Part shown: positions 11,509 through 16,687 of the stretch, one piece after another
Numbering within the stretch: position 1 is the stretch's first letter
Layout: each line of letters begins with the position of its first letter
Source of the DNA: a bacterium
GTDB lineage: Bacteria > Sumerlaeota > Sumerlaeia > SLMS01 > JAHLLQ01
DNA length: 64,000 nucleotides
Assembly (NCBI GenBank): GCA_020444065.1
Contig: JAHLLQ010000002.1
Span: forward strand, 620,001 to 684,000
Reading direction: 5' to 3'
Notes under the pieces: model-generated
The model's input: the letters and a program-made list of their open reading frames with translations, nothing else
Databases searched by the model: none
What the model was told of the DNA's origin: nothing
Position numbers and translations under genes: made by a program

Positions 11509-11694
11509 CCGACCCACCGCCGGGGCTCTCTTAGGGATCCCCTGCCGTGCTCAGCGAAGCGGTGCTCGCCAATCGTAATCGATTCTACTGATCTGTGAAC
11601 AACGACTACGAGCACGAGCACGAAGGCGCTCCTTTGCCCTGGAAAGACCTCCTGCTCCAAGATCGCTCTGAACACTGCGCCATTCGCCTTCACG

Positions 11695-11809
11695 TCTCCT
11701 TGCAGATCCCCGGCTTTCGGCATCTGCTTGTTTTGCGTTCGCATTTGACCTCCGGAGGAGGTCCAGTTGAATGGCCCGAGCGACCGAAGGGAGGCGAGCC
11801 CGGACCTCC
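11695..11809 (+). repeat. REP-like element, distal direct copy
   Basis: First of two direct copies about 163 bases apart. Bases 11695-11793 match 11858-11957 with only a few differences, including TCTCCTTGCAGA, TTTCGGCATCTGCTTG, TTTTGCGTTCGC, CCTCCGGAGGAGGTCC and AGTTGAATGGCCC. The copy contains a small hairpin (CCTCC/GGAGG) and an outer inverted repeat, GGAGGTCC (11757-11764) with GGACCTCC (11802-11809). No gene is evident in 11509-12014. Confidence 0.8.
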
Positions 11810-11857
11810 ATAGTTCTTCCATCATCGAACAACGACACATCGGCGATCGTCCTCACT

Positions 11858-12008
11858 TCTCCTTGCAGACCCCTGGCTTTCGGCATCTGCTTGTTTTGCG
11901 TTCGCCTTTGACCTCCGGAGGAGGTCCAGTTGAATGGCCCCGAGCGACCGTAGGGAGCTCGGGGTACCTGATGTCTTCCCGTTGGTCCCCGGAGGGGGCC
12001 AAGAAAGG
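11858..12008 (+). repeat. REP-like element, proximal left copy with three hairpins
   Basis: Second direct copy, immediately upstream of the transposase. It has hairpin 1 CCTCC/GGAGG near 11910-11922, the conserved AGTTGAATGG, and hairpin 2 CCCCGAGC / GCTCGGGG around an 11-base loop GACCGTAGGGA (11938-11964). Hairpin 3 is CCCC-GGA-GGGG near 11987-11997. The same three hairpins recur in inverted orientation on the other side of the gene (12473-12575). Confidence 0.8.
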
Positions 12009-12014
12009 CCTCCT

Positions 12015-12461
12015 GTGTCCGCCTACACGCAGCTCTACTACCACATCGTGTTTTCAACAAAGGAACGAAAGCCCGTCCTGGACGCGCCGAATCGCAGGCG
12101 CTTCTTCCAATACGCCTGGGGGTTCCTGAAGAAAAAGAGCTGCCACCTCTATCGCATCGGTGGTGTGGAAGACCACGTCCACATTCTCACGCACATTCAC
12201 CAGACCATCGCTCTCGCAGATCTCGTTCGAGACCTTAAGACCAGCACCAATCAGTGGATTCGATCCGAAGATGTCTTCCCATTCTTCGATGGCTGGCAGA
12301 TCAGTTACGCTGCATTTACGAAGTCACACGCTGATAAAGACAAGCTGATCGACTACATCAAGAACCAGGAAGAGCATCACCGCAAGGTCACCTTCATTGA
12401 AGAGTTGCGTGCTCTTCTCGAAGCCGAGGGCATTCCTTTCGAGGAGCGATATCTGGAGTAA
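12015..12461 (+). CDS. IS200/IS605-like Y1 transposase (REP-associated, RAYT-type)
   Basis: A 148-residue HUH-type single-strand transposase. The HUH metal-binding motif is DHVHILTHI near residue 55. The catalytic tyrosine lies in LIDYIKNQEEHH near residue 116, with the C-terminal EGIPFEERYLE typical of TnpA_IS200. It begins SAYTQLYYHIVFSTKERKP from a GTG at 12015, where AAAGG sits about 8 bases upstream. Homology starts at this GTG, so the longer open frame from 11934 is not used. It is enclosed by inverted REP-like hairpin elements rather than classic IS200 ends, so it may be a domesticated RAYT that mobilises or maintains the REPs. Both key motifs are intact. Confidence 0.88.
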   Translation: MSAYTQLYYHIVFSTKERKPVLDAPNRRRFFQYAWGFLKKKSCHLYRIGGVEDHVHILTHIHQTIALADLVRDLKTSTNQWIRSEDVFPFFDGWQISYAAFTKSHADKDKLIDYIKNQEEHHRKVTFIEELRALLEAEGIPFEERYLE

Positions 12462-12472
12462 CGCTCGCGTTG

Positions 12473-12575
12473 ACGGTCTTCTTCGCCCCCTTCGGGGACG
12501 GAGTTCTTTCGTCCCTTTACCCCGGGCTCCCGCTGGTCGCCCGGGGCCATTCAACTGATCCTCCTTCGGAGGATT
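12473..12575 (-). repeat. REP-like element, right inverted copy
   Basis: Read on the minus strand this region repeats the left element in order: CCTCC-GAA-GGAGG, TCAGTTGAATGG, CCCCGGGC-GACCAGCGGGA-GCCCGGGG, then CCCC-GAA-GGGG and GGGCGAAGAAG. Stem 2 differs from the left copy by a compensatory A-T to G-C change, so the structure is conserved. Together with 11858-12008 it forms an imperfect inverted repeat of about 100 bases around the transposase. Confidence 0.8.
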
Positions 12576-12647: not shown

Positions 12648-14921
12648 TTACCCCAATTCCTCCAGAAAATCCAGTTGCCGATCTTTTTGTTTGGGTGGGG
12701 GAGCAGGTTTCTCCCATGGCGGGTGGATATTCTTCTCCAGCAACTCCTCGTCCGCGGGCCACAGGAGCGTATTCACTGCGCGCCGCAACAATTCAATGTA
12801 CGCCACCGGATCGTATGTCGTCTCCGCATTCATCAGCGGCGTCAGACAAACCCGTCGCTCCCGATCGGCGTTTTGCGCGTCGGTGATAATGTACTCGATC
12901 GTCTCGCCGGCGTGCATGTTCAGGCCGGCGCGCTCGGATTGGCGCGCAGCAAGTGCCTGGCGGCCGTTGCCTTTGTACTCGGTTGGTTCGTGGGACAGAT
13001 TCCCTCGAACTGCCAGCTTATCGATCGGGATCTCGCCGCGCCACAGCATGCCTTCCCATTCTGCCACGCGCTCGCGGATGGACGGAATCATTGCGCGATA
13101 CTCTTCCGCTGTGCGCGCAGCCGACAATTCATCCAGCAATACCTTCTGTGCGGAGCGAATGAAGATTGGCAGATCGCGACGCCGGCATTCGATACCGCGG
13201 AACTTCAGCGATCCATCCTCGAACGCTCCAAAATAACGCGTCGGCACAGGCCGATCCGCAAATTGTCGCGATGGCAGGAATGCGATCCAGCGATAAACCC
13301 CTTCGAGAGAAATCGTCAGCCCCGTTGCCGCATCGATCTCGCGTTGCAGTTCGGCGATTTCCTCGCGTTTGAAGTCGGGCTTCACGATCCACACACAATC
13401 CACATTCGCGTGCAGCATGTGCCAGCCGCGGTCTTCGCAAACCTCCCGCGCGACCGTCAGCAATTCGCGCGAGAACGCAGAGACGGACTCGTGGGCCTCG
13501 ATGCGACCGAATCGCGCGTTGCGATAGCCGAGATAGCCGAAGCAGCAAACCAGCAGCCACTTGATCGCATTCTGTCGGTCGTCGAAACGTTGAGCATCGA
13601 ACTCATCGGCACGTTCCCGGGCATCGCCACGCAGTTGTTTGTATTCGACGCGTTTGTCGATCAATGGCGCCAGCGCCCGCGAAACCAATCCCACGCGCCG
13701 TTCGCAGATCGTGTAGCCAATCTCCGGCACGCGCACGTTCTGGCAACACGAGCAATTCACCGTCTCCGGCGAGACATTGAACCGCGACATGATCGTCGGG
13801 TACATGGACATGAAATCCAACTCGACGACATTCTCATAGAAGCCGATCTCCGGCGCGTACACCAGCCCGCCGCGATCGGTCTTCAGCAATTGCGATGCGC
13901 TTTTCCACGCCTCCGGCTGCGTCTTCTTCCATGGGATCAGGTACTGCTCGTGGTACGCGACATCAAGCTGCACTGACGTGATTCCCGTGCCGATGCTGCG
14001 GCGTGCGATGCGCTGCGGCGGCAGACGACTCAGTCGCGTGACTTCGTATAGGCCCTCGAGGTTCGTGTGCTCGACCATGAAGGAGTTGTCGCGATCCAGA
14101 TGCCAGCGCCCGTAGAGCGTGTATTCCGGCGCCTGGTAGAGAATGCGGCCGTAGGACATGAACGATCGCCCATCGATCTGCGCCTTGCGCTCACGCGGCG
14201 GCGGCTCGCGATCCAGCCGCAGCGGAAAGCGCATCTGTCGCGCCGCGCTCAGCAGCAGCGGAAAGACAAACCCATCGCCGCCATTGGTCATCAGAACATC
14301 GGGGTCGATTCGATCGATCGCATCCTGGAAACTCTCCAGCATGGTCGCCGGATCATCCCACGTCATTTCGATCCCATCGTGTTCGAGTGTAATCGATTCC
14401 AGACGCGGCCGCCGACCGAGCAATCGCCCCTCTGCGCGTATTTCTACCGTTCTCAACGGTGGCGCATCGTAGCGCGTATCCCAACGATCGTCCTCCAGCC
14501 GCAACGCCGCCAGGGTGCCGTCGCGCGCTTCGAACTCGCATCGACAAAGCGGAAAGATCGCGCGCTCGTAGCAATAAAGCTGCTCCGGCATCAGGTCCGC
14601 ATTGTACCACGAAACCAGTGGATAACGATCGGCGTAGCGTTGCAGCTTGAAACGCCACGTTTCCGCCTCGCGTACACGCAACGCAAACACGCGCCGCATA
14701 TCGCCGGTCCAGAAATCGCGCCGCTCCGTCCAATCGAGCAGTTCTGCGTCCCCACTTTTCTCGATCGCACGCAGGCACCCCCTCACCGATCGCCCGTCGC
14801 CATCGAGATACACAATCGGGCAAAACTCGTCCTCCACACGCACGCGCTTTCCATCGTCCGTCAGAAACCAAAGGACCATAGAAGAACCGCGTGCATAGAG
14901 ATCGAAGAGCCAGGATTTCAT
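12648..14921 (-). CDS. Family B DNA polymerase, PolB2-like (archaeal type)
   Basis: A 757-residue polymerase of the B family, shorter than E. coli Pol II. Motif A is VVELDFMSMYP (Asp369). Motif B is KWLLVCCFG (Lys454), where most B polymerases have K-x3-N-S-x-Y-G. Motif C is HANVDCVWI, in which the first Asp of DTD is Asn506 and the second is retained as Asp508. The thumb motif LKFRGIE is near 572. The 3'-5' exonuclease region (about 170-310) is degenerate: ExoII-like DPDVLMTNGGDGFVFPLLL exists, but I find no D-x-E ExoI. The C-terminus has QLDFL (749-753), close to the bacterial beta-clamp pentapeptide. These features match the PolB2 group, first described as inactivated archaeal polymerases with a few bacterial members. 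Third gene of an operon; no clear ribosome binding site. Confidence 0.85.
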   Translation of the reverse strand: MKSWLFDLYARGSSMVLWFLTDDGKRVRVEDEFCPIVYLDGDGRSVRGCLRAIEKSGDAELLDWTERRDFWTGDMRRVFALRVREAETWRFKLQRYADRYPLVSWYNADLMPEQLYCYERAIFPLCRCEFEARDGTLAALRLEDDRWDTRYDAPPLRTVEIRAEGRLLGRRPRLESITLEHDGIEMTWDDPATMLESFQDAIDRIDPDVLMTNGGDGFVFPLLLSAARQMRFPLRLDREPPPRERKAQIDGRSFMSYGRILYQAPEYTLYGRWHLDRDNSFMVEHTNLEGLYEVTRLSRLPPQRIARRSIGTGITSVQLDVAYHEQYLIPWKKTQPEAWKSASQLLKTDRGGLVYAPEIGFYENVVELDFMSMYPTIMSRFNVSPETVNCSCCQNVRVPEIGYTICERRVGLVSRALAPLIDKRVEYKQLRGDARERADEFDAQRFDDRQNAIKWLLVCCFGYLGYRNARFGRIEAHESVSAFSRELLTVAREVCEDRGWHMLHANVDCVWIVKPDFKREEIAELQREIDAATGLTISLEGVYRWIAFLPSRQFADRPVPTRYFGAFEDGSLKFRGIECRRRDLPIFIRSAQKVLLDELSAARTAEEYRAMIPSIRERVAEWEGMLWRGEIPIDKLAVRGNLSHEPTEYKGNGRQALAARQSERAGLNMHAGETIEYIITDAQNADRERRVCLTPLMNAETTYDPVAYIELLRRAVNTLLWPADEELLEKNIHPPWEKPAPPPKQKDRQLDFLEELG

Positions 14922-14955
14922 GAGAATGGCCAGTGGCGAGTCGTTGCAACCGCCG

Positions 14956-15216
14956 TCAGTCGCCGGCCGCGATCTTCTCCAACTCCTTCCGCAAGCGCTC
15001 GATTTCCAATTCCTGATCCAGTAGGATCGCCATCACAAGGCTGTCGAATGGAACGGGGCGCGCGACGTGCGTGGCTTCCGCGGTGTGGCGGCGAGCGCGG
15101 GTAAAAAGACGATCGAACGCCGCCTGGTGCTCGCGCCGCAGCGCCCGGCGAAATGGTCGCCAGGAATCGATCTCTTCCTGCAGGTACGTGTTAAAGGTTG
15201 GTAATGTCCGGCCCAT
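14956..15216 (-). CDS. Small helical protein of the PolB2 operon
   Basis: An 86-residue, probably all-helical protein rich in Arg, Glu and Leu (EEIDSWRPFRRALRREHQ; C-terminal LLDQELEIERLRKELEKI, a likely coiled coil). GGGAGG precedes the ATG by 6 bases. It lies between the RadA-like gene (15 bases upstream) and the polymerase (34 bases downstream). No named domain is certain. Its conserved position suggests a subunit or adaptor that bridges the two proteins, which is inference. Confidence 0.75.
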   Translation of the reverse strand: MGRTLPTFNTYLQEEIDSWRPFRRALRREHQAAFDRLFTRARRHTAEATHVARPVPFDSLVMAILLDQELEIERLRKELEKIAAGD

Positions 15217-15231
15217 TGGCGGCCTCCCATA

Positions 15232-15837
15232 TCATTGAATCTGGCGAACGCGCACATCCGGCAAACCCTCCGGCGTGCGATGCACGGTTCCGCGAAAATC
15301 CGCCAGCCGATCGATCACCGGCCGCCACCATCCCCGTCCCTCCATCGGCGGATCGTGCGTCAGCAAAATCATCATTCCCTCGCGCCGCAGACGAGTCAGG
15401 TGACCCGCGATGCGCTCCAGTACCTGGCGCCTCTCGCGCAGCGCCAGTGACTCCTCCAGAAACAAATGCTCGATCCCGAGCACCGCCCCGATCGGCTGTG
15501 GCCGACGTCCCGCCAGCGGCGGTAACAACTGCGCCGCCACCGCCTCCAACTGGTGGATCGTGAACGTTCGCGTGACAAACACCCGATCCAGCGCCAGTGC
15601 TGGATCGACCCCGCGACGGCGGGCGTAAGTGCTGAAGACATAAGGATCGAAGCTATTCCCGCCATCCACGCAATAGAGCTCCCGCTCGCCCTCCAGCACC
15701 TGCGGCGCCAGCCCGCCGAGAACCTCCGCCGTCACCCGCCGGGGGACCTCTAAAGCCAGGATCCCTCCCTGCGCCGCCGGCCCTAGAATGCCGGCGACAG
15801 GCGCTGATTCCCGAAGAATGAGGTTCGTCTTGCTCAT
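15232..15837 (-). CDS. RadA/RecA-fold ATPase-like protein lacking Walker A
   Basis: A 201-residue protein with the Rad51/RadA core layout: YCVDGGNSFDPY (55-66, where RadA has the DTE strand), then GVDPALALDRVFVTRTFTIHQL, a Walker B-like strand PIGAVLGIEHLF (115-126), and MMILLTHD (155-162) where RadA has TNQ. The N-terminal segment GILGPAAQGGILALEVPRR (17-34) has no GKT/S, so nucleotide binding by a P-loop is doubtful. It heads the operon with the small helical protein and the PolB2-like polymerase. The start at 15837 is chosen because a near-consensus promoter ends 6 bases before it and no ribosome binding site exists; a longer in-frame extension to 16014 would cover that promoter and the divergent gene start. 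Confidence 0.75.
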   Translation of the reverse strand: MSKTNLILRESAPVAGILGPAAQGGILALEVPRRVTAEVLGGLAPQVLEGERELYCVDGGNSFDPYVFSTYARRRGVDPALALDRVFVTRTFTIHQLEAVAAQLLPPLAGRRPQPIGAVLGIEHLFLEESLALRERRQVLERIAGHLTRLRREGMMILLTHDPPMEGRGWWRPVIDRLADFRGTVHRTPEGLPDVRVRQIQ

Positions 15838-15843
15838 GGCGAA

Positions 15844-15872
15844 AATAAAGCGAAAGTCCGCCGGTAAGTCAA
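15844..15872 (-). promoter_or_regulatory. Leaderless promoter of the PolB2 operon
   Basis: On the minus strand TTGACT (15867-15872), a 17-base spacer and TTTATT (15844-15849) precede the ATG by only 6 bases. Transcription would therefore begin at or next to the start codon, giving a leaderless mRNA, consistent with the absence of a Shine-Dalgarno sequence. Confidence 0.65.
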
Positions 15873-15949: not shown

Positions 15950-16687
15950 ATGAAACGCGCAGCCATTATCTTGGTACTCGTGGTAGCCGTTGCTATCGGT
16001 GCTCTTGTCTTCATGCGCAGTGCAGAGAATGTGCGTCTTGATGCCCAGCGAATCGCGGCCGAAAAAAGGGCAGACGATCTGAGTCATCCGATTAAGAGCG
16101 ACGATCCGGGGGGCGAACACACTCCCGTGACATCGCAGAACGCAGCCGAACTTGTCTCGGGTATGGCGCCGGTGCTGCACCACGCGCCCGCCTCCGAAAT
16201 GTCCGACGAAGACTTGAAGGCCATCCAGTTTGCGAAGAAAATGAATCTGGCGATTCTGAAAGCACTTGCCCTTCACGATCGCTCAGAACTGGACGGCCTC
16301 GATGTCCAGGGTGTCAGCAAGTCGTTTGCGGATCAACTGGCCGAGTCCCAGGAGGAATCGCCCAACTACAACTGGACGGCGCTTAATCAGTCCGCATCAA
16401 ACGCTGCCGTGTGGGATCTCGAATCGGACGAGTACGCCGACTGGGAAAAGAATCGTTGGTTCCCGGAATCCATCGCCCAGGCCGAACGAATGCTCGGCAA
16501 GAAGCCGCGTTATCTTATTCTGAATCATTTCCAGGTCGAACACGCCGGCGACGCTCGAAACTTCCTGGAGTTCCAGACGTTTCTGGCCGAAGATGGAAAG
16601 GCGGTCAGTTTCTCCATTCTTGCCAGCAATCAGTTCGGTGGACACGGCGCACCGGCCACGATTCCGCAGGATGCAATAGATCCGTAA
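15950..16687 (+). CDS. Membrane-anchored or exported protein of unknown function
   Basis: A 245-residue protein with one N-terminal hydrophobic segment (AAIILVLVVAVAIGALVF, 4-21), then a soluble, acidic domain (DWEKNRWFPESIAQAERMLGKK, split by Trp-rich stretches, and ILNHFQVEHAG near 186-196). No family recognised. A perfect AGGAGG at 15936-15941 precedes the ATG by 8 bases. It is divergent from the RadA-like gene, sharing a 112-base promoter region. Confidence 0.75.
   Translation: MKRAAIILVLVVAVAIGALVFMRSAENVRLDAQRIAAEKRADDLSHPIKSDDPGGEHTPVTSQNAAELVSGMAPVLHHAPASEMSDEDLKAIQFAKKMNLAILKALALHDRSELDGLDVQGVSKSFADQLAESQEESPNYNWTALNQSASNAAVWDLESDEYADWEKNRWFPESIAQAERMLGKKPRYLILNHFQVEHAGDARNFLEFQTFLAEDGKAVSFSILASNQFGGHGAPATIPQDAIDP

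Follow-up and report, generated by a model that had tools for sequence, protein, structure and literature searches.

Three closely packed genes of a Sumerlaeota genome, carried by a window of 64 kb (the whole stretch of DNA analysed here), raise the question of whether a bacterium of this phylum possesses the PolB2 mutasome and how the production of such a complex would be controlled. The PolB2 mutasome was first noted by Makarova et al. in 2014 (PMC4104785) and modelled by Timinskas et al. in 2025 (PMC11791011), in a paper whose main text does not name Sumerlaeota. A preliminary description had read the locus as a bacterial version of the PolB2 operon of archaea; the protein hallmarks, the tree and the gene co-occurrence presented below agree with this reading, and the unit has already been published as the PolB2 mutasome. 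The kind of system is thus already known, and what is added here is this member, its predicted operator and a clamp motif. We hold it to be very probable that the iRadA, PPB2 and PolB2 proteins form a translesion polymerase of several subunits, the PolB2 mutasome, under predicted LexA control, which would work through the MGRT arm, iRadA and a clamp contact.

Organization of the locus

The genome carrying the window has a size of 5.2 Mb and is 97% complete. Reading of the open reading frames revealed a minus-strand operon in the order iRadA, PPB2, PolB2 (Table 1), with 15 bases between the first two genes and 34 bases between the last two. The three tightly spaced minus-strand genes of the preliminary description were recovered with exactly the same limits, and the protein types given to them (RadA/RecA-like, 86-residue helical and family B polymerase) are borne out by profiles, models and conservation. 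The iRadA and ppb2 genes do not overlap in the window, unlike those of several relatives: in L015, L016, L017, L018 and L024 the end of the iRadA frame overlaps ppb2, which is read in a different frame, by about 35 to 200 bases. A gene of 245 amino acids without Pfam match (window positions 15950-16687, plus strand) diverges from iRadA, and the promoter region is common to both. Just downstream of polB2, an IS200-like (Y1_Tnp) transposase gene is found at 11934-12461 on the plus strand; on either side of it, at 11672-11966 and 12518-12572, lie inverted and direct repeats 55-106 nt long, an arrangement looking like a REP-associated transposase.

Table 1. Genes, promoter elements and protein motifs of the PolB2 locus (window positions)
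Feature	Position	Strand	Size	Description
iRadA	15837-15232	minus	201 aa	RadA/Rad51 fold, without Walker A
ppb2 (PPB2)	15216-14956	minus	86 aa	small helical PolB2 partner
polB2 (PolB2)	14921-12648	minus	757 aa	family B DNA polymerase, PolB2 group
predicted -35, TTGACT	15867..15872	minus		TTGAC at the same place in 7/7 genomes of the order
predicted LexA operator, TTCGCTTTATTTTCGC	15839..15854	minus		direct repeat with a period of 11 bases; a single base separates it from the iRadA ATG
predicted -10, TTTATT	15844..15849	minus		lies within the operator; spacer of 17 bases; 6 bases separate it from the ATG
PPB2 MGRT N-terminal arm	15205..15216	minus		assigned from sequence
PolB2 motif C	13398..13406	minus		residues 506-508 (NVD), with Asn in place of the first catalytic Asp and the second retained
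PolB2 beta-clamp-like motif	12663..12677	minus		residues 749-753, QLDFL

The polymerase belongs to the PolB2 group

The polymerase was matched by the NCBIfam type-B polymerase model PRK05761.1-4 over residues 6-724 (E=2.7e-121), and its residues 294-710 by thermococcal PolB structures. Haloarchaeal type-B polymerases match it over the full length, with E values down to 1e-96 and about 32% identity, and the orthologues within Sumerlaeota are 49-66% identical. A tree of 62 polymerases was computed with Pol II, PolB3, one archaeal PolB and one phage PolB (six other B polymerases) as outgroups. The window PolB2 groups with other Sumerlaeota (SH-aLRT 98 and 100) within a large bacterial PolB2 group, the haloarchaeal PolB2 stand beside the bacterial ones, and the Pol II, PolB3, archaeal PolB and phage PolB sequences fall outside (SH-aLRT 100), with some outgroup branches long and the branching order among outgroups unreliable. 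The placement in a B-family tree that had been proposed as a check thus put the polymerase within PolB2 and apart from Pol II, from PolB3 and from the B polymerase of a phage.

In an alignment of 79 bacterial PolB2, the first position of motif C is occupied by I (53), L (15), N (9) or Y (2) and never by D, the asparagine being the form of the window PolB2 and its near relatives; this aspartate is retained in all six aligned non-PolB2 polymerases. The second motif C aspartate (residue 508), the motif A Asp369 and the motif B Lys454 are invariant in 79/79. The loop before the palm contains a D(K/R) motif (RWHLDR, D276-R277 in the window protein), the aspartate of which is present in all 79 sequences. 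The Exo II aspartate has been replaced in 78 of the 79 proteins, by V in the window PolB2, and the Pfam exonuclease match reaches an E value of 0.2 only; as judged from these residues, the 3'-5' exonuclease active site of PolB2 is lost.

The partners iRadA and PPB2

As a single sequence, iRadA lies near noise (Pfam Rad51, E=0.3). The profile of its family matches archaeal RadA structures of the PDB with an E value of 2.4e-9, and its AlphaFold model (pLDDT 84.9) matches Rad51/RadA structures with an E value of 4e-11. The Walker A pattern GxxxxGK[TS] is absent from the sequence. The adjacent RadA homologue without ATPase site is the published iRadA.

No convincing match to PPB2 was obtained in Pfam or NCBIfam. 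The protein is 53-74% identical across ten other Sumerlaeota genomes, and its start, MGRTxPTFN, is invariant in the 11 Sumerlaeota genomes. In the published description, the MGRT arm is conserved and touches both PolB2 and iRadA (PMC11791011). The PPB2 model is all-helical (pLDDT 79), and its comparison with solved structures gave no significant match, the weak one obtained being to a chain of a transcription-initiation complex (E=8).

Co-occurrence and distribution of the three genes

In the phylum set of 40 Sumerlaeota genomes, PolB2 is present in 12, the window genome included, and wherever enough of the contig is available iRadA and PPB2 are always encoded upstream on the same strand. For a wider sampling, an alignment-based scan of genome_contigs highlighted 518 stretches with PolB2 relatives; a single-protein scan of the same set gave none. 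Among the best 80 of these 518, which cover many phyla, 68 bacterial loci were informative and 62 of them carry the three genes in the order iRadA-PPB2-PolB2; the co-occurrence check proposed for the locus is thereby answered in favour of a common unit. No other order of these genes has been reported for bacteria (PMC11791011, PMC4104785). At the other six informative loci polB2 stands alone, and five of these six genomes hold an iRadA-PPB2 pair elsewhere. Such a split between polB2 and an intact iRadA-PPB2 pair was seen in Omnitrophota, Hinthialibacterota, Methylomirabilota (NC10), an Ignavibacteriales MAG and one further bacterium (pieces L118, L119, L129, L130 and L160, paired with L195-L199). 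At haloarchaeal plasmid loci, both partners are upstream in four out of five cases, and some of these loci are near orc1/cdc6 genes.

A complete iRadA-PPB2-PolB2 operon is also carried by the Leptospira LE1-type phages KF114879 and KF114878 (L202:3189-6445 and L203:3213-6265). Their iRadA was detected with E values of about 1e-20 to 1e-23, their PPB2 starts with MGRT and their polymerase is ~34% identical; the PPB2 gene is annotated there as a fragment of 43-55 amino acids. The main text of PMC11791011 makes no mention of phages.

Promoter and predicted LexA operator

The region before iRadA contains a direct repeat, TTCGC-N6-TTCGC, which is the sole exact copy in the 64-kb window. In the order to which this genome belongs, TTCG-N7-TTCG was found upstream of iRadA in 7/7 readable genomes, with TTGAC, a spacer and the repeat placed directly before the start codon, for example TTTCGCTTTTATTTCGCC-ATG; the spacing between the predicted -35 and -10 is conserved in these relatives. 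Since only six bases separate the predicted -10 from the ATG, too few for a ribosome-binding site, the mRNA of the operon is probably leaderless.

The genome encodes LexA and RecA, and pattern searches for the same repeat located exact copies before lexA, recN (two copies), ruvA and dinB, and a one-base variant upstream of recA. Another exact copy is found 143 bases from a gene with a match, in its first 70 residues, to the OB-fold domain typical of xseA, and one more before a DinB_2-family gene. The combination of TTGAC and repeat occurs in this genome at recN and at the DinB_2-family gene, and the reversed control gave no match. The DinB_2-superfamily gene (G000:C4:168646; L028:920-1453, minus strand) has a TTGAC and direct-repeat promoter like that of the PolB2 operon. 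Genome-wide, the strict repeat is present in 52 copies, versus 14 for the reversed pattern, and about 40 exact copies are not evidently linked to repair. The repeat by itself is no proof of function, because most of the remaining genome copies do not precede repair genes.

The upstream regions of 30 lexA genes were then submitted to a word-pair search from which the PolB2 data were left out. TTCG-N7-TTCG was found in 12 of the 30, the maximum for any pair after shuffling being 4. This pair precedes lexA in 5/5 genomes of the window's family, and TTCA-N7-TTCG does so in 6/6 readable genomes of a sister family. Within the order, TTCG-N7-TTCG precedes recN in 8/9 and recA in 5/7 genomes, for a chance of 0.24% per upstream region; in the genomes outside the order, none has the repeat before recN or recA. 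In another family of the same phylum (f13), several genomes have GAAC-N4-GTTC before lexA or recA, so that a phylum-wide LexA box is ruled out. GAAC-N4-GTTC, which most lexA genes of f13 have in front of them, is the form of the Gram-positive LexA box. One f13 genome (G030) has a PolB2 operon preceded neither by the TTCG repeat nor by GAAC-N4-GTTC. The pieces compared were L027, L254, L106, L045 and L061-L089. No description of a LexA box TTCGC-N6-TTCGC for Sumerlaeota was found in the literature.

As the same direct repeat precedes lexA, recN, ruvA and dinB, with a variant at recA, the shared sequence predicts LexA control of the PolB2 operon in one order of Sumerlaeota, and this predicted operator supports an induction of the operon by DNA damage.

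A clamp-like motif at the C-terminus of PolB2

The residue Q749 of PolB2 is invariant in ten Sumerlaeota sequences, which end in QLDFL or similar. A clamp-like motif was present in 10/10 readable Sumerlaeota PolB2 C-termini, against 2/70 for the PolB2 of other bacteria and 2.4% for shuffled tails, suggesting that the tail of the Sumerlaeota protein probably binds the beta clamp. In published mutasomes, clamp motifs are reported more often on iRadA (PMC11791011). A general clamp motif on bacterial iRadA was rejected, as a strict pattern, which is less refined than the profile search of that paper, was found in only 4 of 62 iRadA, in 11 PolB2 and in both proteins at 1 locus.

Alternative explanations

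Could the polymerase be a common B polymerase, Pol II-like or derived from a phage, with unrelated neighbours? The family B core, common to PolB2, Pol II and phage polymerases, would be compatible with this idea, but the Pol II models match just part of the protein, the tree separates all PolB2 from the other B polymerases in spite of some long outgroup branches, and the partner genes are its regular companions. The protein neither groups with Pol II nor keeps the DxD and the exonuclease of that family. The tree and the co-occurrence together refute a Pol II or phage identity, to which we leave practically no probability. A more serious reading is the view of 2014, according to which PolB2 has no catalytic activity and the complex acts at stalled forks in a structural or regulatory capacity. 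The first motif C aspartate missing from every bacterial PolB2 aligned, the vanished exonuclease residues and an iRadA that is itself without ATP site speak in its favour. The full conservation of the motif A aspartate, the motif B lysine and the second motif C aspartate is, on the other hand, unexpected for a dead enzyme, and archaeal Dpo2, with the same aspartate loss, is reported as an active mismatch extender in PMC11791011, which cites the original work. We therefore regard a dead PolB2 as unlikely. The term "often inactivated" which the preliminary description had applied to PolB2 needs correcting: with the activity reported for Dpo2, the group is no longer viewed as inactive.

The control of the operon could also be of another nature, with a regulator other than LexA bound to the direct repeat and the operon induced by damage through a different route or not at all. 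The assignment of the repeat to LexA is sequence-based, and the many exact copies elsewhere in the genome would suit such a regulator. Against this, the repeat stands before the usual SOS set and is conserved across the order, and its 11-base direct-repeat form is that of the alphaproteobacterial LexA box. LexA boxes are indeed known to vary between groups, the alphaproteobacterial LexA recognizing GTTC-N7-GTTC (PMC3323433, PMC8565304). A non-LexA regulator appears quite improbable to us, and LexA remains the favoured candidate.

Proposed mechanism

The PolB2 mutasome would have reached bacteria from archaea. In the proposed scheme, the operon would be held off by LexA bound to TTCGC-N6-TTCGC, a site overlapping with the spacer and the -10. 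Damage would lead, through RecA, to the self-cleavage of LexA and then to the synthesis of a probably leaderless mRNA. PPB2 would form a trimer and insert its MGRT arm where PolB2 and iRadA meet; iRadA, as a dead RadA, would dock on PolB2 in the way one RadA subunit does on the next. The 1:1:3 PolB2:iRadA:PPB2 complex is a published AlphaFold model and not a solved structure (PMC11791011). PolB2, devoid of a working proofreading domain and with a single motif C aspartate, would extend mismatched or lesion-containing primer ends like Dpo2, a function that we infer from this distant archaeal relative, and in Sumerlaeota the beta-clamp motif at the C-terminus of the enzyme itself would probably keep it at the fork.

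UmuC and ImuB were not found among the Y-family genes of this genome, which has a single one, a DinB; the PolB2 operon may therefore be its main multi-subunit mutagenic polymerase. That the mutasome is, throughout the order, the main SOS-induced mutagenic polymerase, with the LexA box TTCGC-N6-TTCGC, a leaderless promoter and a clamp contact through the polymerase tail, is put forward tentatively, its chances being in our opinion slightly short of even. These data would indicate an archaeal-type mutasome wired into the bacterial SOS response via a specific operator. For a phylum that has been little studied, they provide a predicted LexA box as well as a small set of target genes that lend themselves to testing. 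How the three parts cooperate can be approached through the clamp motif particular to this lineage, the split genes and the phage copies.

Comparison with known systems

With the published PolB2 mutasome, the Sumerlaeota locus shares the three families, the gene order, the motif C loss, the dead exonuclease, the dead RadA, the MGRT arm and a link to LexA. This link is a neighbouring lexA gene in the published cases, whereas it is a predicted operator in Sumerlaeota; likewise, the clamp motif is on PolB2 in all readable Sumerlaeota C-termini and more often on iRadA in published mutasomes. The Sulfolobus Dpo2 operon encodes the same complex, but its regulation is archaeal and its motif C is IID instead of NVD; Dpo2 is described in the summary given by PMC11791011 as damage-inducible in Sulfolobales and required for targeted mutagenesis. 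Pol V (UmuC-UmuD'2-RecA) and the ImuA-ImuB-DnaE2 mutasome are comparable in that a polymerase under SOS control works there with accessory proteins and a partner of the RecA family; their polymerases are of families Y and C, whereas PolB2 is of family B.
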